Shown here piece by piece: positions 23,126 through 55,300 of a DNA stretch of 64,000 bases (its first letter is position 1; every line of letters starts with the position of its first letter). Both the position numbers and the translations under genes were made by a program. The notes beneath the pieces were generated by a model. The model did no database searches. It saw only the letters and a program-made list of their open reading frames with translations, and was not told the DNA's origin. The stretch spans positions 124,001 to 188,000 of the forward strand of contig CAMHSB010000002.1 of NCBI GenBank assembly GCA_946187695.1. Reading direction: 5' to 3'. This DNA is from an uncultured Bacteroidales bacterium. Its GTDB lineage: Bacteria; Bacteroidota; Bacteroidia; Bacteroidales; Paludibacteraceae.

Positions 23126-25666
23126 TTATTGAATTTTATCTTTTCTAACTGCACGAACTCGTGCATTTATTATATACCAAGACGAGTTTTGGCTCAAATG
23201 AGTTTGTTCATATGATCCATTATATATATATATCACATACGGATACTTTGTCCCTTTTGATGAGGTCCAATAGTTCGCATAGTAATATGCCGATCCTGGG
23301 CGTCCATATCCATCGTCATAATAAGTTTGTACCCATCCGGTGGTTACTTGTCGTGCTATTTGTTCAAGTTCATACATGTCTGGAAGATACCAGTCATCAT
23401 ATCCTGCAAGTGTATAATTTTGACATGTATTTACCGCAGTTTGCCAATCCATTTCGCCGAGATCTTGAGACACATGATACTTATATCCGCCATAACTAAC
23501 TATTGGAAGTAAAGAGTAAGCATACATTTCTTTAGTAACTAAGACCTGTTCTCCGTATACGGTTCCATTAATGTTAGTTGCATAAGCACGAATGTAATAA
23601 TTAGTAGATTGTAGATTAATCCCGGTGATTTGACTAGAATAGTATCCACCTCCCGTGCCATCTGAAGTTTTAGTATCGCTTATAGTTGGGTAAGGAAATG
23701 TACTCCAACATACACCTCGTTCAGTAATAGGGAAGCCACCATCATCTGTTATATTTCCACCTGAAATTGCTGATGTTCGGGTTATACTCTCTACTTCTAA
23801 TGTCTCTACAGTTGGTAAACCATCTTTAGTTATAAATGATTTTTGTGCACTATAACTAGTCGCTACATTAGTAGTAGCATATGCACGCACATAATAAGTC
23901 GTGTTAGGCTGTAGATTTGCCAAATAACACATATAATCGTTATTCAATTGTTTACCGCCCGCTGTATTTGTTTGATCTTCTATAGTCGGAGTTGGCAAAG
24001 TTGACCAGCACACTCCGCTTTCTAATAATTCGGACGCACCGCTTAAATCGGTTACTTTAATTGAAACGGATGCAGTGATCGCGGTAGTATCTGTAATATT
24101 ACCTAACGTCACGACAGCTTTACCGTCTTTAGTGGCAATTTTAATAACTTGACCATAAGAGGTTCCATTTTCGTTAATAGCATACGATCGAGTAAAATAT
24201 TCAGTTTCTGGTTGTAAATCTATGATGGTAGAACTGAAAACTCCCATCCCCTTACCATTAGGTATTTTAATATCCTCTGTGGTAGGTTCTGAATTTTGTT
24301 GACTATAAACAAAACCACGTTCTGAGACATTGTATCCCCATGTTTCAGTCACTTCTCCCTCAACACGAATAGTTGTTGCTGTGCTACTAACTTGCTTGGT
24401 TTTCACAATAGGTAAACCATCTGTTGTAGTGATGCTAATTTGTTTACTATACGTTGTTCCTGTCTCATTGGTCGCAAACGCGCGCACATAATACGTGGTG
24501 CCTATTTGTAGATTTCTGACATTTCCTTGATATGATCCTAATCCTCTTCCTACAGAAATAGTGGCATCTTCTGTTGTTGGATATTGTGTGGTAGCATAAC
24601 AGAAACCGCGCTCCGTAACAGCAATATCACAATCAGAGACAACCGTACCATACGCTGTGAAACCGGTTGCAGTTACGGAGGTTATTGAATCCGTTTTTAC
24701 TACAGCTAAACCATCCAATGTAGTGATAATAATCTGCTCTCCATAGGTCGTTTTAGTACTATTAGTTGCATACGTGCGGACATAATAAGTTGTATTCTCA
24801 GTCAAATCCTTCATCGTGCTGGTAAACTCACCTATACCAGATCCATCATCCGTACAGTCATCATCTACTGTCGGATCCGGACGCTTGCTCCAACATGTTC
24901 CGCGTTTAGTTACTGAGAATCCACCATCGCTGACCACTTTACCTTTACACTTCGCTGAGTGAGCAGTGATACGGATAACAGAATCGGTTACAACAACTGC
25001 AACACCTTCCTCTGTCGTGAACTTTATTTGTAACGTGTCATAGGCTGTACCCATTTTGTTTGTTGCATATGCACGAGCATAATAGATGGTGTTGTACTCC
25101 AAATTTTTCAAAGTACTTGTAAAAGCACCAAGACCAGCACCATCCGTTGTATGCAAGCCGTCTACAGTAGGATAAGGATCCGGCCCATAGCAGATACCGC
25201 GAGCAGTAACACGCAAACGTCCATCGGTCATAACTTCACCGCCCATGATAACCTCATCGGCTTTCAATGATTGGATCGGTGTTGTTTTTACGGTTGGTTT
25301 AGACGGTCCCTCAACCTCTATTACTCCTAAATCCACTTCAGCTTGGCCATAGCCACCCAATCCTACTTTTTTAGGAATACAGGTGGAATCCCCAGCAAGC
25401 AGGTAATATTCTCCATCTATTTCGTTAACTCGTACTTTGAGTGAGAATAATCCTCCTGCATCAGTTTGTGTCTGACAATGGGTGTCCTTTCCATTTGTCA
25501 CTTTAACAGTCAGATCCGCAAAAGGATTGGTGGTATTTATATACACCACTTGTCCGTGATATTCTACAACATCATTTAATTCATCTTTGTTACATCCAAC
25601 AAAGAATGTACTATTGCTAATAATAAGTGTGGCTAATAAGCCAAACCAAGTGAATTGTCTTTTCAT
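23126..25666 (-). CDS. modular lipoprotein: FnIII-like repeats plus C-terminal Lcl/DUF1566-like domain
   Basis: Lipobox ...STFFVGC; repeats G.v..DGG..VTeRG.CWs..p.PT..d..t..G.G.G.F.s....L...TTYYVRAYATN..GT.Yg; C-term GYDDWYLPDMYELEQI...YWTSSKG...ARVRAVRK. Confidence 0.88.
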   Translation of the reverse strand: MKRQFTWFGLLATLIISNSTFFVGCNKDELNDVVEYHGQVVYINTTNPFADLTVKVTNGKDTHCQTQTDAGGLFSLKVRVNEIDGEYYLLAGDSTCIPKKVGLGGYGQAEVDLGVIEVEGPSKPTVKTTPIQSLKADEVIMGGEVMTDGRLRVTARGICYGPDPYPTVDGLHTTDGAGLGAFTSTLKNLEYNTIYYARAYATNKMGTAYDTLQIKFTTEEGVAVVVTDSVIRITAHSAKCKGKVVSDGGFSVTKRGTCWSKRPDPTVDDDCTDDGSGIGEFTSTMKDLTENTTYYVRTYATNSTKTTYGEQIIITTLDGLAVVKTDSITSVTATGFTAYGTVVSDCDIAVTERGFCYATTQYPTTEDATISVGRGLGSYQGNVRNLQIGTTYYVRAFATNETGTTYSKQISITTTDGLPIVKTKQVSSTATTIRVEGEVTETWGYNVSERGFVYSQQNSEPTTEDIKIPNGKGMGVFSSTIIDLQPETEYFTRSYAINENGTSYGQVIKIATKDGKAVVTLGNITDTTAITASVSIKVTDLSGASELLESGVCWSTLPTPTIEDQTNTAGGKQLNNDYMCYLANLQPNTTYYVRAYATTNVATSYSAQKSFITKDGLPTVETLEVESITRTSAISGGNITDDGGFPITERGVCWSTFPYPTISDTKTSDGTGGGYYSSQITGINLQSTNYYIRAYATNINGTVYGEQVLVTKEMYAYSLLPIVSYGGYKYHVSQDLGEMDWQTAVNTCQNYTLAGYDDWYLPDMYELEQIARQVTTGWVQTYYDDGYGRPGSAYYYANYWTSSKGTKYPYVIYIYNGSYEQTHLSQNSSWYIINARVRAVRKDKIQ

Positions 25667-25681: not shown

Positions 25682-28600
25682 TTATTGCGCTATATATTTG
25701 CGGACTGCACGAACCCGTTGAGATGAATCCCTGCTAAATTGGTCCATTTCGGTATATTTTTGTTGCGCTTCTCCACTAACTTGTCTTATTACAATATTGA
25801 ATGTAACTGCACCCCATGAACCATATTCTTCTGATGTCCAATACTGACCCTTTACTTCTATATAATAAGGTGCTTGATTATTAACTACATTCGTCTTCCA
25901 TCCCTCAATATCTTTAGTTGCAAGATAGCAGGCTTGTATTTCGTCTGGGGAGGGTAGATACCAGTCATCATATCCTCCAAATGAAAGAGCATCACAAGCA
26001 GACATGGCATTATCCCAAGTCATAATCCCCATATCAGGATATAGTTTATACGTATAACCTGCATATTGCAATGTTGGTAAATTGGCATAATCAAGATTTT
26101 CTTTACTTATTTTTACCGACTCTCCGTATACTGTACCATTGGCATTGGTAGCATAAGCCCGAACGTAATAAGTGTTATTTTCTGTTAAGTCAATTCCGGT
26201 AATAGTACTAGTAAAATAGCCCTTTCCTCCTCCATTAACGGTTTTGCTATCTGCTATAGTGGGGTTAGGTAATGTACTCCAACAAACACCGCGTGCTGTA
26301 ACTGCATATCCTCCGTCATCTGTCACATTTCCACCTCCAGTTGCTGTTGTGCTGGTAACATTCTCCCCTATAACCGTTGTTGTTACCGATGGCATACCAT
26401 TTCCTGTTGTTACAGAATATACATGACCATAACTTGTCCCTATACTGTTCGTTGCATATGCGCGGACATAATAAGTTGTACTAACAGACACATTTGTTAT
26501 TATTGATGTAAACGCCCCTGATCCTGTTCCGCTAGAAGTAAATGCATCACTCAAAGTGGGCTCTGAATTGTTGGTGCTATAGCATAAACCACGCGCAGTA
26601 ATAGGATAACCGCCATCACTGGTAATATTACCTCCTGCAGAGATTTTAACAGATGTCGCGGTAGGCTGCATTGTTGTTAGTTCTGGTAAACCACTGGCCG
26701 TAGTAAATGTCCGTTGCGGACTATACGATGTTGCGATATCTGTAGTTGCATATGCTCTGACATAATATACCGTACTTGGATTTAGACTGGATAAATTGCA
26801 TGTGTATGCTGTATTTACAACCTTTCCGCTTGCTACTGTCTTTTGATTGACTATAGTGGGGTTAGGCGTAGTTGCCCAACATATACCACAACTTTGTAAC
26901 GTTGCTCCATTTGCATCCGTTATAGTTACTATTCCGGAAGCCGTCAAAGCTGTAATATTAGCAATCGATCCTAATGTAACTTCTGCTGCGCCGGTCTTCG
27001 TCGTGAAAGTCTTCTGATCGCTATATGTCGTGGCTACATTTGTTGTGGCATATGCACGCACATAGTAAGTAGTGCCCGGCTGCAGTTCCGACATGTTGCA
27101 GGGATATGCGGTATTCAGTGCCTTGCCAGTCGCTGCAGTTTTGCTATCTGAGATAGTCGGTGTGGGATTGGTTGACCAACAGATACCACAACTTTGCAAC
27201 GTCGCACTTCCGGCATCGGTGACAGTTACAGACGCAGTAGCGGTCAACGCGGTAATATTGGTTATATTATCTAACAGGACACTCGCATTGCCTGATTTTG
27301 TTTGTATTGAGATTGGCGCACCATACGCAATACCATTTTCATTTATGGCGTAAGCGCGGATATGATAGGTAGTGTTAGCGGATAAGCCGGTAATAGAAAC
27401 ATTGTATCCCCCATTGCCGCTTCCACCTAATACTTTCTCATCTGTAATAGTCGGTAAAACGTTGGTGATACTATAGCATACACCACGTTCTGTGACAGCA
27501 TAACCGCCATTAGATGTTACATTACCTCCGGTAGATATCGATGTGGCAGTAGATGTGGCCTCCGCTGTCGTTACTTTTGCTAATCCATCTTGAGTGGTAA
27601 TTATCCGCTGCTCGCTATACCCAACTCCTATGCTATTTACTGCGTAGGCGCGAACGTAATAAGTGGTGTTAACATTCAACCCAGTTAAACTACCGGTAAA
27701 CTCTCCCATGCCACTACCAATCACCACATGTGCGTCTGTGTTTGTTGGATATTGTGAGACACTATAACAGAAGCCTCGCTCAGAAACGGTTAAACCGCCA
27801 TCACCGGTTACATTACCAGTACAAGATACACTATTGGCTGTCGGCTCTCCTATTTGTGAAAGAACAACTACAGGAATACCATCACTCGTCTTAAATGAAT
27901 ATACTTTACCGTATGCTGTTCCGGCATCTGTAGTAGCATATGCTCGGAAATAATAAGTTGTTTTATCTTGAAGATTTTTGAGATTGCTAACAAACTCTCC
28001 TTTACCTTTACCTTCTGTTGTATGCGTGTCTTCAGTGGTAGGTTGAGGTTCTGTGCTATAGCATATACCGCGTGCTGTTACGGTTAATGTGCCGTCATCT
28101 GTTACTTTTCCACCACATGTTGCTTTTACGGAACCTATGTTAGTTACTACGGAATCTGTCACGACGGAGGGCAGTCCTGTTCGCGTGGTAATTTCATATT
28201 GTATAGAATCATAAGTAGTTGCGGTAGCATTAATTGCATAGGCACGTACGTAATATGTAGTTCCATATTCTAAGCCGCTAATGGTAGCGTGGAACGAACC
28301 AAGTCCTTTACTAACAGGAGTACGCTTGTTTTCTGTTGTCGGATATTGACTTGTCGAGTAACAGAAACCGCGCTCCGTAACAGCAATATCACAATCAGAG
28401 ACCACCGTACCATACGCGGTGAAACCGGTTGCGGTGACGGAGGTTATAGAATCCGTTTTTACTACAGCTAAACCATCCAATGTTGTGATAATAATCTGCT
28501 CTCCATAGGTCGTTTTGGTACTGTTCGTTGCATATGTGCGGACATAATAAGTGGTGTTTTCAGTCAGATCCTTCATCGTACTGGTAAACTCACCGATACC

Positions 28601-29437
28601 AGATCCATCATCCGTACAGTCATCATCTACTGTCGGATCCGGACGCTTGCTCCAACATGTTCCGCGTTTAGTTACTGAGAATCCACCATCGCTGACCACT
28701 TTACCTTTACACTTCGCTGAGTGAGCAGTGATACGGATAACAGAATCGGTTACAACAACTGCAACACCTTCCTCTGTCGTGAACTTTATTTGTAACGTGT
28801 CATAGGCTGTACCCATTTTGTTTGTTGCATATGCACGAGCATAATAGATGGTGTTGTACTCCAAATTTTTCAAAGTACTTGTAAAAGCACCAAGACCAGC
28901 ACCATCCGTTGTATGCAAGCCGTCTACAGTAGGATAAGGATCCGGCCCATAGCAGATACCGCGAGCAGTAACACGCAAACGTCCATCGGTCATAACTTCA
29001 CCGCCCATGATAACCTCATCGGCTTTCAATGATTGGATCGGTGTTGTTTTTACGGTTGGTTTAGACGGTCCCTCAACCTCTATTACTCCTAAATCCACTT
29101 CAGCTTGACCATAGCCACCCAATCCTACTTTCTTTGGGATACAAGTGGAATCACCGGCAAGCAGGTAATATTCTCCATCTATCTCGTTAACTCGTACCTT
29201 CAACGAGAATAATCCTCCTGCATCTGTTTGTGTCTGACAATGAGTGTCCTTTCCATTAGTTACCTTAACTGTCAAATCAGGGAATGGATTGGTAGTATTG
29301 ATATACACTACTTGACCATGATAGACGATTACATCATTCATGTCGTCTTTGTTACATGCCACAAAGAACGTGCTAATAGTTACTAACAATGTGGCTACAA
29401 CTCCGAGCCATGTGAATCTTGTTTTCATTGTTGACAT
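25682..29437 (-). CDS. modular lipoprotein paralogue, 1251 aa, FnIII-like repeats plus C-terminal Lcl/DUF1566-like domain
   Basis: Same architecture; shares a 512-bp identical tract with the 23126-25666 gene; C-term GYDDWYLPSPDEIQACY...YWTSEEY...QRVRAVRK. Confidence 0.88.
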   Translation of the reverse strand: MSTMKTRFTWLGVVATLLVTISTFFVACNKDDMNDVIVYHGQVVYINTTNPFPDLTVKVTNGKDTHCQTQTDAGGLFSLKVRVNEIDGEYYLLAGDSTCIPKKVGLGGYGQAEVDLGVIEVEGPSKPTVKTTPIQSLKADEVIMGGEVMTDGRLRVTARGICYGPDPYPTVDGLHTTDGAGLGAFTSTLKNLEYNTIYYARAYATNKMGTAYDTLQIKFTTEEGVAVVVTDSVIRITAHSAKCKGKVVSDGGFSVTKRGTCWSKRPDPTVDDDCTDDGSGIGEFTSTMKDLTENTTYYVRTYATNSTKTTYGEQIIITTLDGLAVVKTDSITSVTATGFTAYGTVVSDCDIAVTERGFCYSTSQYPTTENKRTPVSKGLGSFHATISGLEYGTTYYVRAYAINATATTYDSIQYEITTRTGLPSVVTDSVVTNIGSVKATCGGKVTDDGTLTVTARGICYSTEPQPTTEDTHTTEGKGKGEFVSNLKNLQDKTTYYFRAYATTDAGTAYGKVYSFKTSDGIPVVVLSQIGEPTANSVSCTGNVTGDGGLTVSERGFCYSVSQYPTNTDAHVVIGSGMGEFTGSLTGLNVNTTYYVRAYAVNSIGVGYSEQRIITTQDGLAKVTTAEATSTATSISTGGNVTSNGGYAVTERGVCYSITNVLPTITDEKVLGGSGNGGYNVSITGLSANTTYHIRAYAINENGIAYGAPISIQTKSGNASVLLDNITNITALTATASVTVTDAGSATLQSCGICWSTNPTPTISDSKTAATGKALNTAYPCNMSELQPGTTYYVRAYATTNVATTYSDQKTFTTKTGAAEVTLGSIANITALTASGIVTITDANGATLQSCGICWATTPNPTIVNQKTVASGKVVNTAYTCNLSSLNPSTVYYVRAYATTDIATSYSPQRTFTTASGLPELTTMQPTATSVKISAGGNITSDGGYPITARGLCYSTNNSEPTLSDAFTSSGTGSGAFTSIITNVSVSTTYYVRAYATNSIGTSYGHVYSVTTGNGMPSVTTTVIGENVTSTTATGGGNVTDDGGYAVTARGVCWSTLPNPTIADSKTVNGGGKGYFTSTITGIDLTENNTYYVRAYATNANGTVYGESVKISKENLDYANLPTLQYAGYTYKLYPDMGIMTWDNAMSACDALSFGGYDDWYLPSPDEIQACYLATKDIEGWKTNVVNNQAPYYIEVKGQYWTSEEYGSWGAVTFNIVIRQVSGEAQQKYTEMDQFSRDSSQRVRAVRKYIAQ

Positions 29438-29488: not shown

Positions 29489-31489
29489 TTATTGATTATC
29501 AGTCCGATATTTACGGACCGCAAATACCAGCGATGTGGTTAAAAGACTTGTTCCTGATGTACTCCCTCTTTTCCAATATCTATATTTTAGATTATAACTA
29601 TTGTAATCATAATCATAAATATAAAAAAAGTAAGTCTCGCCACCTGCATCTTTATTCGAGGCCCATATTTCGTGTTCTCCCTCTATAAAAAGTTGAGTTA
29701 CATTGGGAGTAGAACTATAAGAATATCCATAATATGTGGCATTGCTTCCCCATTTATTATATACATACGTTATTATGGCTTGCACCTCTCCATCATCTGG
29801 CATAAACCAATCTGAATAACCTCCATACACCATATTTTCACAAGCATCATATCCTTCTTGCCATGCCATTGGACCAAGTGGTTTTATTTTATATGTATAA
29901 CCACCATAACTCATTGTCTTTAAACTTAGATATTCAGAACGCTCAGGGGTTACAACAACTTGATCACCGTATGCTGTTCCCAACGAATTGGTGGCGTACG
30001 CACGTATGTAATAGGTCTTTTTTGTCGGTGTAATATTTGTAATATTTGCCGAGAAATAACCGACACCACTACCGCTCGTCATATTAGTACTATTTTCCAA
30101 AGTCGGATAAGGTAATGTACTATATACAAATCCACGCGTTGAGATTTCAAAGCCGCCATCATCAATTACATTACCAACAGCAGATATAGAAGAAGACGTG
30201 ATATTCTCTCCCGGATCCAAGGTTTCAACTGTAGGTAACCCATTGCCAGATGTAAAGCTAACAGATGTACCATAAGCCGTTCCTACTTCATTAGTGGCAT
30301 ATGCGCGGACATAGTAAGTCGTATTTGCATCTAACTCAGTCATTAAACTGGTAAATACGCCATTATCCGCCACTTCATTAGTATGGCTGTCATCCGTTGT
30401 CGGCGTAGAGGTGATGCTACTCCAGCAGATTCCTCTCGCAGTAATGATATATCCACCATTATTTGTAACATTACCACCACCTAATGCGGACGTGGTTTTA
30501 ATATTCGTTACTTCTGCTGTCGTTACGGTCGGCATTCCGCTTAATGTGGTAAAAACTTTTGTTTCACCATAATTAGGACCTTTTTCGTTTACTGCATATG
30601 CACGAACATAATATGTGGTATTACGTTCCAAACCAATCATCATACTCTTAAAATGACCGGTTGTTGCTACTTCTTCTGTGTGATTACTGCTAGTCGTAGG
30701 TGAAGCGGTAGTGTTGCTCCAACATATACCACGTGCAGTGATCGGGTAACCGGAGTTGGCAGCTACTTCACCACCGCAAACGGCTGATGTGGCAAAAATC
30801 TCAGACACTGTGTCTGTTGTAACTTGCGGTAAACCGGTTGCGGTAGAGAATGAGAATTGATCACCATATGCCGTTCCTTGTTTATTTGTGGCGTATGCGC
30901 GGACATAGTAAGTAACGCCTTGTTCCAAATCTGTCATTTGGCAAGTGAACTCACCTAAACCTTTGCCGTTCTCTGTATGATCTCCGTCAATGGTCGGGTA
31001 CTCGGATTTTGCCCAACAAACACCTCGTGCCGTTACTTCTGATCGACCGTCTGCCGTTACGTTACCACCGCAAGTCGCTTTGCTATCCGATATGTTGCTG
31101 ACAGGTTTCGTCGTAACGGTCGGAATTGTCGGGCCCTCTATTTCTATGGTACCCAAATCAACTTTTGCCTGACCAAACCCGGACAATTCTATTTGTTTAG
31201 TTATACAACTTGCATCGCCAATAAGAATATAATAACTACCATTAACTTCTCCCACTTTTACTTGTAGCATAAACTCACCGGAAGTGTTCGTATGTTCAAT
31301 GCAATGGATTTTATCTCCATTGGTCACTTTTACTTCCAAATCGGCAAATGGATTGGTTGTCCCGGCATGCACCACTTTTCCGACATAACAAACCTCCGTA
31401 TTAACATCTTCATTGCACCCGATAAAACAAGTGCTGATGCCTATAATCATTGTGGCAATGATGCCGAACCTTGTAAAACGTTTCTTCAT
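29489..31489 (-). CDS. modular lipoprotein paralogue, 666 aa, FnIII-like repeats plus C-terminal Lcl-like domain
   Basis: Same architecture; lipobox ISTCFIGC; C-term GYSDWFMPDDGEVQAI...IWASNKD...LVFAVRKYRTDNQ. Confidence 0.88.
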   Translation of the reverse strand: MKKRFTRFGIIATMIIGISTCFIGCNEDVNTEVCYVGKVVHAGTTNPFADLEVKVTNGDKIHCIEHTNTSGEFMLQVKVGEVNGSYYILIGDASCITKQIELSGFGQAKVDLGTIEIEGPTIPTVTTKPVSNISDSKATCGGNVTADGRSEVTARGVCWAKSEYPTIDGDHTENGKGLGEFTCQMTDLEQGVTYYVRAYATNKQGTAYGDQFSFSTATGLPQVTTDTVSEIFATSAVCGGEVAANSGYPITARGICWSNTTASPTTSSNHTEEVATTGHFKSMMIGLERNTTYYVRAYAVNEKGPNYGETKVFTTLSGMPTVTTAEVTNIKTTSALGGGNVTNNGGYIITARGICWSSITSTPTTDDSHTNEVADNGVFTSLMTELDANTTYYVRAYATNEVGTAYGTSVSFTSGNGLPTVETLDPGENITSSSISAVGNVIDDGGFEISTRGFVYSTLPYPTLENSTNMTSGSGVGYFSANITNITPTKKTYYIRAYATNSLGTAYGDQVVVTPERSEYLSLKTMSYGGYTYKIKPLGPMAWQEGYDACENMVYGGYSDWFMPDDGEVQAIITYVYNKWGSNATYYGYSYSSTPNVTQLFIEGEHEIWASNKDAGGETYFFYIYDYDYNSYNLKYRYWKRGSTSGTSLLTTSLVFAVRKYRTDNQ

Positions 31490-32889: not shown

Positions 32890-33708
32890 TTATTCTTCCA
32901 TTTCTGCACGTTGTTGTTTAAGTGAAGCATTTTCCTTAGCGGCATTAGCATCCAATTCTGCCTGCATACGTTTACGGAAGAGTGCCTTATCAATATCTAC
33001 GTCTTTTACCTCATCCAATATAGTATCCATTACTTTTTTCATTGGAACATACAATGCTTCGTAACATACCCATTGATTGTAACGGTCTTTTCCGAATTGA
33101 CGACAGTCAACCACATAAAACTCATTGATTGCTTTTTCTCCTGCTGAAAGAACCATTCCCTCTAATTGGCCTTCTGTAACACGGTTCATAGATGGTGTAC
33201 TAGTGTCTTTATTATAACTCTCCATGGCATTTTTTACTACACCAGCAAAACGCTGACCGATATCATCTATAGCTCTTTGATTGGCAACTTTTTGAGCCAA
33301 CTCTTGTGTTTGTTGCCCCGTACCAATTCCTTGTGCTGCCATTTGTTCAGGAATTTTATTTAAAGCAAGAAACTCATCCATACAAGGCGTATAAATTAAT
33401 TGAACGCCACCTTCCATCACTTGTGTCATGGCATTTTGGGATTGCATTTGGGCTCGCTGGCCTTCACGTTTCAAGTCTTTTTTCTCTTTTTCCCATGCTT
33501 CGTCCTCTGCTTTTTGTTGTTGAGCCTTTTTGATGCTGTCCATTCTCATTTGGTGAATAAGAGCAGCTTCTTCTGCTTTCTGCTTTTGCTCCATTTCCCA
33601 TTGAGCTTTAGCCGCAGCCTTTTTCTCTTTACGACTCTGTGCCTGCGCCGGCATGGCAATTGCTAATGACATTGCTACTACGGTAGCGAAAAAGAATAAT
33701 TTTTTCAT
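32890..33708 (-). CDS. hypothetical secreted coiled-coil protein, first gene of the repeat-lipoprotein operon
   Basis: Signal MKKLFFFATVVAMSLAIAMPAQAQ; Lys/Glu/Gln-rich helix; tight spacing with 32883. Confidence 0.75.
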   Translation of the reverse strand: MKKLFFFATVVAMSLAIAMPAQAQSRKEKKAAAKAQWEMEQKQKAEEAALIHQMRMDSIKKAQQQKAEDEAWEKEKKDLKREGQRAQMQSQNAMTQVMEGGVQLIYTPCMDEFLALNKIPEQMAAQGIGTGQQTQELAQKVANQRAIDDIGQRFAGVVKNAMESYNKDTSTPSMNRVTEGQLEGMVLSAGEKAINEFYVVDCRQFGKDRYNQWVCYEALYVPMKKVMDTILDEVKDVDIDKALFRKRMQAELDANAAKENASLKQQRAEMEE

Positions 33709-33793
33709 TGTTGTAATGATTTAATGATATTTGCCTACTCACTTGGCTTTTCGGCTTACTCCATTTATAATTGTTTGTTATTTTTCCATACAC

Positions 33794-33839
33794 AAAAAGC
33801 GTAGACCTCGTGTTGCTTACTTACACACGAGGCCTTCGC
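33794..33839 (-). terminator. Rho-independent terminator of the structured RNA
   Basis: 33799-33813 GCGTAGACCTCGTGT pairs with 33825-33839 ACACGAGGCCTTCGC (two mismatches); T5 on minus strand (33794-33798). Confidence 0.85.
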
Positions 33840-34134
33840 ATTGCCCTAAAAGTCAAATAAACAACAGGAAACCTACGCCGATATGACATACCGCTTGCTT
33901 AGATATAGCAAGACGGGTACTATAGTCATACCCATAGGCATCTACTGCTCACTTTGATTTTGACTTTTAATTCCGAAAGTTGCGAAGTTCCGTGTGTCAA
34001 ACACAAAGCGTCAATAAACGCTATTTCAATAAATTTTGAATCCCTCTAACCCTCTCCACAAGGAGATCGGCGTAGATAGATTCCGTGATTTGAGCACCTT
34101 ATTCTTCACGCGCGTCGCGTTCATGCACCCAAAT
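33794..34134 (-). ncRNA. Candidate structured RNA / attenuator leader upstream of the 33708-23126 operon
   Basis: Own promoter (34141-34171) and terminator (33794-33839). Closing stem AAAAGTCAAA 33848-33857/TTTGACTTTT 33959-33968; inner helices CCTA/TAGG, ATGAC/GTCAT, TACC/GGTA, CTTGCT/AGCAAG; long-range CTACGCCGAT 33873-33882/ATCGGCGTAG 34066-34075. Confidence 0.65.
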
Positions 34135-34140
34135 CGGGTG

Positions 34141-34171
34141 CAAAGATACATAATTATTCCGAAATACACAA
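34141..34171 (-). promoter_or_regulatory. Bacteroidota-type promoter (TTG-N20-TATCTTTG, minus strand)
   Basis: Plus-strand CAAAGATA 34141-34148 and CAA 34169-34171. Confidence 0.78.
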
Positions 34172-34232: not shown

Positions 34233-34257
34233 AAAAAAAGCGCACCTTTCGATGCGC
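34233..34257 (-). terminator. Rho-independent terminator of the mini DUF1016-like gene
   Basis: Minus strand GCGCA-TCGAAAGG-TGCGC-TTTTTTT. Confidence 0.8.
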
Positions 34258-52387: not shown

Positions 52388-55300
52388 TTAGAAGCCAAGG
52401 CGCACCGTCAAGGTGAACTGACGCGGCACAGGCGAACTTACACCACCTGAACTGTAGAACTCAGGATCTTGACCGTTCAACTTCTTGTCGGCATAGAGCA
52501 GCGCTAAGTTCGTTCCGCTGATCTTGGCGGAGAAAGAAGAAACAGCCTTCTGTCCCTCAAACCATTTCTGGGGGAACGAATACTCGAGCGATACCTCTTT
52601 GAGACGGATGAAGCCGCCGTCTGCTACGCGGACGTCGCTGTAGTTATATGCCGAATAAGCGTAGTTCAAACCGTCGATGGTCTCAAACTGACGTTTGGAA
52701 GCAATCACCGGAATAGTGGTCTTTGCTTCATCACCTGCTACCATCCAACGGTTCTTCATCTCGCGCATGTTGGCGGAGATATCGTTGTACTCGCTTGCAT
52801 AGACGTTGCACAGGTCGTTCAGACGGATCTTGTTTCCACCACGGAAAGTGAGGAAGACACCAATCTTGAAGTTCTTGAAGATCGTGAACTCGTTGCTGAA
52901 ACCACCATCGATCGTCGGGTCAATCGTACCCTCGTACTTGAGGTAATCGAGGTTCTCGAAGTCCTGGAAGTTGATATCGCCGTAGTTCTCCGGGGTGTAC
53001 AACTCCGTTCCCTCTTTGTTGGCATAGAAAGTGGGCAGACCTTCGTCCGTCAGACCCGCAAAACGAATGGAATAGAGGGCGTACAGCGGACGATCGACTT
53101 GACGACCGTAACCGTTCAAGAGCGTGTATGCGCGGTCGTGCGAATCGAGCTTGGTGATCTTGTTCGTGATATGACTGAACGCCAGGTTACTCGTCCATTG
53201 GAAGTTCTCCAAGCGGACATTGACGGTCGAGAGTGCGATCTCTATACCTTGCGACTCCATCGTGGCATCGTTGGCATATTTTGTGATCTGACCACCCACA
53301 CCCGAAGTCTGAACCGGGCCGATCAGGTCGTAGTTGTTACGACGGAAATAGTCGACATCCAGATTGATGCGGTCGTCGATGAAGCCGAGGTGGGTACCGA
53401 TATTGAACTCATGTTTCTTCTCGTACGTCAACTCGGAGTTCGCCAGATCGACCAGCTCGATACCGGTCTCCGATACGTTCGCCAGCGGTCTCCACGGGTT
53501 GTAAGCCTCGAAGATAGCGAGCGAGTTGCTCACGCTCTCCGGACCACGGGTCGCCGTCAACGAATAGCTCAGTTTCAGGCTTGCTGCCGTCCACCATCTG
53601 CCGAAGGTCGGACGCCAGAAGCGCTCTGCGTCTGCGTTCCATACACCGCTGACGTTCCAGGTCGGCAACCAACGTGCTTTGGCCGAGTGACCCAACTTGT
53701 TCGATCCCTCGTAACGGATGGTTCCCGTAACCGAGTAACGCGACTGGTACGAATAGGTAGCCGTAGCAAAGAAAGCCAGGTTACGATCGTAGTAGTTCAC
53801 GTTCTCGTAGTACTGCGTACCTTCCTCTTTCATCTGCTTGAAGGCCTTGTAATCGAAGGACGGGATACCGCCGTTCTCATACTGATAGCCCCAGCCCTGG
53901 AACCAAGTGTCCTGACGGTCGGTGGAGTTGGACTCTACACCGGCGAAGAAATTGACGATATGATCGTCACCCTCGCTACCGTCATTGGCAAAACCGTGGT
54001 TATACGATACCGTTCCGCGGAAGTCCAAGGCCAACAGACGTTTGTGTGTATCCTTGATGATACCGCCGTCCGGCAGTACCGATACAGGCAGCGCACCGCT
54101 CACGTCCGGGTCCGTGTACAGGTACTCGTTCGCGTCGCGGATAAGGTCGTTCTCTACATCGCCTTCGTCCAAGCCCAAACCGGCACGGTAAGCGCGGGCC
54201 TGGTTGGAGAAGTCCATGATATTGTGCTGTAACTCATCGTGGTTGTAACGCACACTGGCCAGACCGGCAATCTCGAGGCCTTTGATCGGCTTCCATACCA
54301 ACTCACCCTGGAACTTCACATCCGTACGGGTAACGTCGATATAGTTCTGCTTCAACTCATCGAAGATATTGAAACCGCAGTAGTTGCGACGGTAGCTCTC
54401 ATTGGGATCCAGCGCACGCGAAGAGTTCATACAGTAGGAGAACGGGTTGATATCGAAATCACGACTGATAGCACCCGTTACAGGGTCGGTCGATTGACTG
54501 ACAGAACCCGGAGCTTCCTGTTTGATATAGCTGCCGCTGGTGTTCAAACGGAGCGTCAAGCCCTGCTTGCTGCCCTTCGGGAGCAACTCGAAGCTTGCTT
54601 TCGCACTACCGGTGTAACGCTGTACGCCCGACTTCTGATACCAGCCCGGATCATACAGCACCGAAGCCGAACTATAGAAATTAGCACGCTCGGTACCCGT
54701 TGCGAAAGAGAGCGAGTGGTTCATCATGACGTTTGTGTTGAACAGCAGATCAAACCAATCCGTATTGCGGTACTCTGCCTGACGCAGGTAGTTGTTGATG
54801 GCGCTCTCGTTGTTCGGCAGGCCGTATTTGCCCGTCGCAGGATCATAGCTGTCGATGAGGCTGAACATCTTACCGTACACACCCGAGTTCTTCGTTGTGT
54901 TCAGGTTCGATGCTTCCAACCAACCTTTCTGACGCAGCTCCTGGTAGATGGCCATCTGCTCTTGCGAGTTACTGATGTTATAATCCGAATAGCTCGGTTT
55001 CATACGCATGGTGAACTCACCGGTATAGTTGAGTGTCGTCTTTCCGGCCGTACCTTTCTTCGTCGTTACGACGATGACACCAGCCATAGCACGTGCACCG
55101 TAGATAGAGGTCGCCGAACCATCCTTCAGGATCTGGATGGACTCGATATCGTCCGGGTTCAAACCGGCAATTGCGTTCGACACCAGGGTCTCGGCATTTC
55201 CACTACTCAGGTCGTCCGCACCCATGTTGGCCGTACTCTCAACGATCACACCGTCCACCACCCAGATCGGGTTTGAGGTACCGTAAATAGAGGTAGCACC

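Follow-up and report, generated by a model that had tools for sequence, protein, structure and literature searches.

Pseudoknotted riboswitches that attenuate transcription, such as those for cobalamin, SAM and ZTP, occupy a leader position and combine a compact, conserved fold with mutually exclusive terminator pairings, and the leader-peptide attenuators of trp and his follow a strand-swap logic (1:2, 2:3, 3:4). Among the Bacteroidales, the FopS/GibS sRNA family of Bacteroides comprises multi-copy RNAs with their own promoters and terminators, of which FopS, a single-stranded 5' stretch plus a single terminator hairpin, targets susC-type mRNAs in trans (PMC11697453). The Bacteroidales also include the UpxY-controlled capsule leaders of Bacteroides, in which termination precedes surface operons.

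The leader RNA analysed here is encoded on the minus strand of a 64,000-nt stretch of DNA from an uncultured Bacteroidales bacterium of the Paludibacteraceae (hereafter the window), and shares its position, its compact fold and its exclusive terminator pairings with the riboswitches and its strand-swap logic with the trp and his attenuators. However, compared with the riboswitches, it has no Rfam match, occurs in many copies per genome, precedes unrelated accessory targets and uses a terminator strand that pairs about 65 nt upstream, with a ligand that is unknown; compared with the trp and his attenuators, it lacks a conserved reading frame and its fold is far more complex. It resembles the FopS/GibS RNAs in being multi-copy, with its own promoter and terminator, but identity with FopS was rejected, as FopS differs in anatomy and has none of the helices of the leader RNA (PMC11697453). 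In contrast to what would be expected of an UpxY-type system, no specialised NusG paralogue was found in the carrier genome (96.6% complete), which yielded one NusG match in total, and UpxY-type antitermination was therefore rejected for this genome; upxY was not noticed as a first gene in any of the sampled loci. The riboswitch criterion of a conserved structured domain in a 5' leader is met, as is, by comparison and not by biochemistry, that of an expression platform with mutually exclusive terminator pairing. The RNA thus works like a riboswitch or attenuator, with its membership of the riboswitches unproven, as ligand binding has not been demonstrated and the targets share no pathway.

At the gathering threshold, no Rfam 15 family matched either the window's copy of the RNA or any of 16 distant members, and permissive Rfam scans returned only DUF805b and chance matches. 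Neither Rfam nor ARAGORN revealed a match to tmRNA, tRNA, RNase P, SRP or 6S RNA. DUF805b RNA (RF02914) is a separate 35-nt element by the start codon, which shares the 5' UTR and is not part of the leader RNA. No description of the leader RNA was found in the literature searched, which did not cover the motif tables of PMC8040213. That study lists 3161 HMP2 candidate motifs, one of which (HMP2_1881) lies near radical SAM genes of Bacteroidetes and measures 108 nt. Fragments of the leader RNA may be among these candidates, for example as an overlap with HMP2_1881. Similarly, the transcriptome map of B. thetaiotaomicron contains many long 5' UTRs and UTR-derived RNAs (PMC7366714), and family members could be present there under other names.

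A preliminary description, made from the sequence alone, had proposed a structured, non-coding RNA of ~340 nt with a promoter, a 10-bp stem, complementary segments and a terminator ahead of a surface-lipoprotein operon, and all of these features were found where it had placed them (Table 1). The promoter, the perfect 10-bp stem, the terminator-like hairpin with its U-tract and the first ATG of the operon at 33708 were confirmed, as were the perfect complementarity of CTACGCCGAT (34075-34066) to ATCGGCGTAG (33882-33873) and the CTACGC of the terminator 3' arm (33804-33799). The fold proved real, and no reading frame was conserved among relatives. The nested hairpin of that description was only partly upheld, since the conserved fold is larger than described and pseudoknotted. 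The 378 nt examined contain three separated 10-mer reverse-complement pairs, where at least one was observed in 40 of 1000 dinucleotide shuffles, which indicates more long complementarity than expected by chance. The 344-nt transcript has a minimum free energy of -123.1 kcal/mol (z = -6.4), with none of 100 shuffles scoring as well. A simple terminator scan did not list the terminator of the leader RNA, presumably owing to its interrupted stem, and instead listed the small hairpin at 34022-34007. A separate strong terminator at 34240-34257 (-), ~90 nt before the RNA promoter, appears to belong to the upstream minus-strand gene.

Table 1. Elements of the leader RNA and of the operon behind it (window coordinates)
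Feature	Position	Strand	Basis or remark
Promoter, Bacteroidota-type TTG-N20-TATCTTTG	34141..34171	-	Sequence; TTG 34171-34169, TATCTTTG 34148-34141; expected RNA start about 34137-34133
Optional 5' hairpin	34087..34137	-	Predicted fold; insert in several genus members and only a subset of relatives
5' hairpin with 5' element CTACGCCGAT (34075-34066), complement of mid	34038..34083	-	119/139 genus-set copies
Conserved small hairpin AGCGT-TTATTG-ACGCT	34007..34022	-	97.6% paired, 98 sequences
P3, 5' strand (partner 33964-33952)	33996..34008	-	Native versus swapped pairing energy
Closing helix A, 5' strand (partner 33829-33823)	33991..33997	-	97.2% paired; double changes in 6/6 modelled pairs
Hairpin H	33975..33991	-	Loop 33987-33981 (CTTCGCA) kisses loop 33840-33834 (TGCGAAG)
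R10, 5' strand of 10-bp stem (partner 33857-33848)	33959..33968	-	Native versus swapped energy
M1, 5' strand (partner mid 33876-33872)	33934..33938	-	95.0% paired; double changes in 5/5 pairs
Mid segment CGGCGTAGG	33872..33880	-	Partner common to M1, 5' element and terminator 3' arm
Pseudoknot strand GTTGTTTATT (partner AGTAAGCAAC, 33821-33812)	33856..33865	-	About 90-92% paired
Hairpin h, kisses H	33830..33846	-	3' strand doubles as 5' arm of local terminator
Terminator region: local hairpin, T3' strand 33805-33799 (pairs with mid), U-tract 33798-33794	33794..33839	-	
DUF805b-like element (RF02914), between terminator and gene	33732..33764	-	33.8 bits, sub-threshold (cutoff 35.6)
First gene of operon, exported protein, 272 aa	32890..33708	-	
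Remaining operon: 147, 317, 666, 1251 and 846 aa	23126..32883	-	FN3 and Lcl_C surface proteins

The RNA belongs to a dispersed family. In a DNA search, its 245-nt body gave many matches in relatives and more than one in its own genome, and profile alignment showed nearly all copies to be full length. From these searches and a pattern scan, 139 distinct full-length copies were assembled (the genus set), with a covariance model built from 37 of them. Within the genus, this model matched 40 of 41 genomes, with 1-22 copies per genome and five strong copies in the carrier genome; in the family it matched 38 of 61 genomes and 22 of 33 genera, and in the order Bacteroidales 51 of 295 sampled genomes and 31 of 183 genera. 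As strict filters were applied in the large-sample searches, the counts represent lower bounds. In a sample of 396 genomes of the phylum, matches were limited to the carrier genome, one other Bacteroidales genome, a genome from another order of the class (L328), whose member looks genuine, and a hit in another phylum member (L329), which was taken as false because it lies inside protein-coding sequence reading like engB. The pattern scan located the RNA in Paludibacteraceae from rumen and gut and in unnamed Bacteroidales MAGs. Relatives were also observed on plasmids of Phocaeicola and Bacteroides, for example at about 53944-54180 of NZ_CP072250.1 in a Phocaeicola dorei strain, and on three further records, two of them fecal 'Bacteriophage sp.' entries and the third an IMG/VR contig. 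The family is thus large and deeply conserved, reaches 10-20 copies per genome, extends to plasmids of the human gut and apparently has no Rfam entry.

The preliminary description had named two refuting outcomes, an Rfam hit to a known housekeeping RNA and helices without covariation; both were checked and neither was obtained, the helices showing strong covariation across the Bacteroidales. The fold consists of closing helix A, the H-h kissing loops, stem R10, helices M1 and M2, and a pseudoknot. For 93 non-redundant members, the pairing energy of two strands of one copy was compared with that of strands from different copies, an approach for which exact alignment is not needed. Native pairing was superior in 100% of cases for helix A (-10.7 versus -3.0 kcal/mol) and the kissing loops (-10.3 versus -5.1), in 99% for R10 (-10.7 versus -3.5), in 98% for P3 (-10.4 versus -6.1), and in 89% for both the pseudoknot (-11.4 versus -7.4) and the helix between the mid segment and the T3' strand, mid:T3' (-12.6 versus -10.6). 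In a model-based alignment of 99 diverse members, 92.2% of nested pairs were standard, 41 of 43 exhibited changes on both sides, and double-change cells numbered 977 against 310 expected; sliding the partners along this alignment reduced pairing to 33-49%. Such an alignment leans towards its own structure. However, of the 24 pairs outside the aligning model (kissing, pseudoknot and mid:T3'), 21 had changed on both sides, and 93.4% of this pairing was standard. Among them, kissing helix H-h was 96.6% paired, with double changes in six of seven pairs, and mid:T3' was 92.9% paired over 98 distinct sequences, again with double changes. A home-made tree-simulation covariation test on a sequence-only alignment had low power and returned seven pairs. 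Comparison therefore shows that the nested helices, the kissing loops, the pseudoknot and the long-range helix by the terminal U-tract are under selection. Terminal inverted repeats (ACATAT/ATATGT) were considered as mobile-element ends and rejected, as they gave no native-over-swapped signal.

Central to the proposed function is the mid segment, for which M1 and T3' compete, as both use the identical five bases. At least four of the five pairs were kept in both helices in 80 of 99 members. Where position 33874 is A, its M1-side partner is U in nearly every member and its T3'-side partner U in most; where it is G, the partners are C or U. The 5' element provides a third partner in 119 of 139 genus-set copies, in which it covaries with mid (native better in 82%), whereas only about half of the distant members have a recognisable one. 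As M1, T3' and the 5' element all pair with mid, these pairings are mutually exclusive. The earlier claim that this segment pairs with both an upstream complement and the terminator 3' arm therefore held as a feature under selection, with its upstream half supported mainly within the genus.

A U-rich 3' end was present in all 99 aligned members. The local terminator hairpin was rejected as the universal terminator, being only 76% paired and absent from ~11 divergent members, which nevertheless keep mid:T3' and the U-tract. The long-range helix is therefore probably the ancestral terminator stem, with the local hairpin a later addition. Fold prediction for the window suggested that helix A persists until the T3' side emerges, after which the terminator hairpin forms; nearest-neighbour folding ignores pseudoknots, and the energies of the states are thus unreliable. 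A 22-codon frame of the window that stops at the mid segment was rejected as a leader peptide. Read from the conserved ATG, the frame showed no preference modulo 3 (74/68/61) and was not open to a greater extent than the others, and the absence of a conserved frame excludes a leader peptide.

The next ORF was codirectional in 127 of 129 informative genus-set cases (background 496 of 589, or 496:93) at a median distance of 87 nt from the terminator, and in 80 of 82 cases of an order-wide set at a median of 69 nt. When both sets, each of which counts the window copy, were pooled, 207 of 211 next genes were codirectional, and the usual distance to them was 50-130 nt. TAnnTTTG was present within 180 nt upstream of 122 of the 139 genus-set copies, compared with 24 on the antisense control strand, and a promoter preceded 72 of 83 order-wide copies, whereas just 9 of 127 and 6 of 80 cases, respectively, had one in the interval from RNA to gene. 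As the promoter precedes the RNA and rarely separates it from the gene, the gene is most likely expressed by read-through from the RNA promoter, although transcript data are not available. Not every copy has a promoter beside it, and some instead lie behind another gene (L042, L049, L052, L056, L061, L065, L153, L189 and L236); these are preceded by a stop codon and by repeated hairpin-like elements of unknown nature, for example CCGTCGCTTGCCGACGTAAAAC and CCGCTGGNNCCGACAGCGTAAAAAAGCGG.

Taken together, these observations suggest that the leader RNA is a cis-acting transcription attenuator of roughly 300 nt, a reading considered likely on the basis of covariation, the two exclusive partners of mid, codirectional genes, promoter placement, the U-rich 3' end, the hairpin-less members that keep mid:T3', the fold change predicted for the window and the lack of a leader peptide. 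Comparison establishes the fold, the exclusive partners of mid, the U-tract, the position and the RNA's own promoter; in the absence of transcript data, regulated termination is inferred. By comparison, the RNA starts at its own promoter, folds into a compact pseudoknotted domain and ends at the U-tract. When mid pairs with T3' next to the U-tract, transcription would stop about 85 nt before the gene, putatively assisted by the local hairpin in many lineages, including that of the window. Conversely, RNA polymerase would read through and transcribe the operon when M1 or the 5' element holds mid and the kissing and closing-helix fold retains the 5' arm of the local hairpin. The operon would then be switched by whatever stabilises the upstream domain, be it a ligand, a protein or a condition of RNA folding. 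That the intact upstream domain represents the read-through state is slightly favoured, though this polarity is a guess and the signal is unknown. The attenuator or riboswitch layout of the preliminary description is accordingly supported by comparison, with regulated termination, signal and polarity not shown. The model specifies three strands precisely and can be tested by mutation.

Certain points count against an attenuator. The exclusive pairings are inferred from sequence, and a three-dimensional fold could possibly use them in turn during folding and regulate nothing; the downstream genes have no pathway in common, as those of a metabolite switch usually do; and the 5' element is missing in many distant members. 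An alternative is a stand-alone, trans-acting or housekeeping-like structured RNA, present in multiple copies and merely located upstream of other genes, as the preliminary description had allowed in proposing a 6S-like RNA. The promoter and terminator that most copies possess, the complex conserved fold and per-genome copy numbers like those of an sRNA family would suit such an RNA. However, 207 codirectional against four opposite next genes, the short gap, a promoter almost never found in between and the recurrence of downstream gene families together with the RNA render this explanation unlikely.

A 5' leader that acts constitutively to stabilise or insulate the mRNA, and at which termination is partial but fixed and never switched, would fit the position and strand, and the diversity of downstream genes would suit a generic role; yet selection keeps two exclusive partners of mid, for which a static leader would have no need, and this reading is also improbable. 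Least plausible is that the RNA recruits a specialised, NusG-like factor for processive antitermination, of the UpxY, RfaH or LoaP type, to accessory operons. Although the accessory and surface operons, which include some polysaccharide operons (L053 and L054), and the leader position agree with it, the genome encodes a single NusG-domain protein. The ops or LoaP hairpins are far smaller and less structured than the leader RNA.

With respect to the genes that the attenuator would control, the 127 first genes of the genus set fell into 79 clusters, of which the one containing the first gene of the window comprised 16 members, and a simple rule classed 90 first genes as signal-peptide-like. Scans of 135 first genes with Pfam, NCBIfam and PADLOC identified neither a dominant function nor a shared metabolic theme. 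The largest group was formed by BspA leucine-rich repeat proteins (n=8), followed by radical-SAM peptide maturases and Cys-rich precursors, methyltransferases, TerY/vWA proteins, a protein kinase, and Hsp70-like, glycosyltransferase and other polysaccharide genes. Overall, surface, modified-peptide, restriction-modification, kinase and polysaccharide genes were represented. The identity of RNA copies was barely higher with homologous first genes (0.69) than otherwise (0.67), indicating that the RNA is not tied to a single gene family. If it indeed gates read-through, it would form a control layer shared by these kinds of genes and spanning a dominant gut order, and would be a candidate for a new riboswitch or attenuator class. 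A bolder reading, to which we give less than even credence, is a Bacteroidales-specific, multiply pseudoknotted switch class that senses one global signal (a second messenger, a stress metabolite, or an RNA-binding or transcription factor) and gates scattered accessory genes with a long-range-helix terminator. If true, this would constitute a common gate on the accessory genome.

In the window, the RNA is followed by exported proteins and then by large FN3/Lcl_C surface proteins, three of which end in Lcl_C domains (29489-31489, 25682-29437 and 23126-25666, minus strand). The Lcl_C fold is also used by targets of diversity-generating retroelements (DGRs). The idea of a DGR template, prompted by these domains, was set aside solely on the ground that the RNA is a dispersed family before unrelated genes. 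Elsewhere, Cys-rich peptide precursors (TIGR04117-like; L096, L270 and L274) or radical-SAM/SPASM maturases (e.g. L066) lie directly behind the RNA, which suggests control of ribosomally made modified peptides. A helix-turn-helix protein of 70-100 aa (MEIHIGKxIKxxLKxQGRSxxWFA...), mostly unmatched in Pfam, is a recurring early gene behind the RNA (L266, L280, L291, L292, L310, L314 and L246) and might represent a cognate regulator.

Short variants of ~155-170 nt (L304, L307, L308, L310, L314 and L328), in which the M hairpin is shortened, retain the kissing loops, the closing helix, the pseudoknot and the terminal helix, and represent a natural minimal form of the leader RNA. DUF805b-like elements also precede the start codon in a dozen genus loci (e.g. 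L060, L062, L046 and L052), and are found before many genes of the genus independently of the leader RNA. One family member is adjoined by an abiF RNA (RF03085; L221:907-943).
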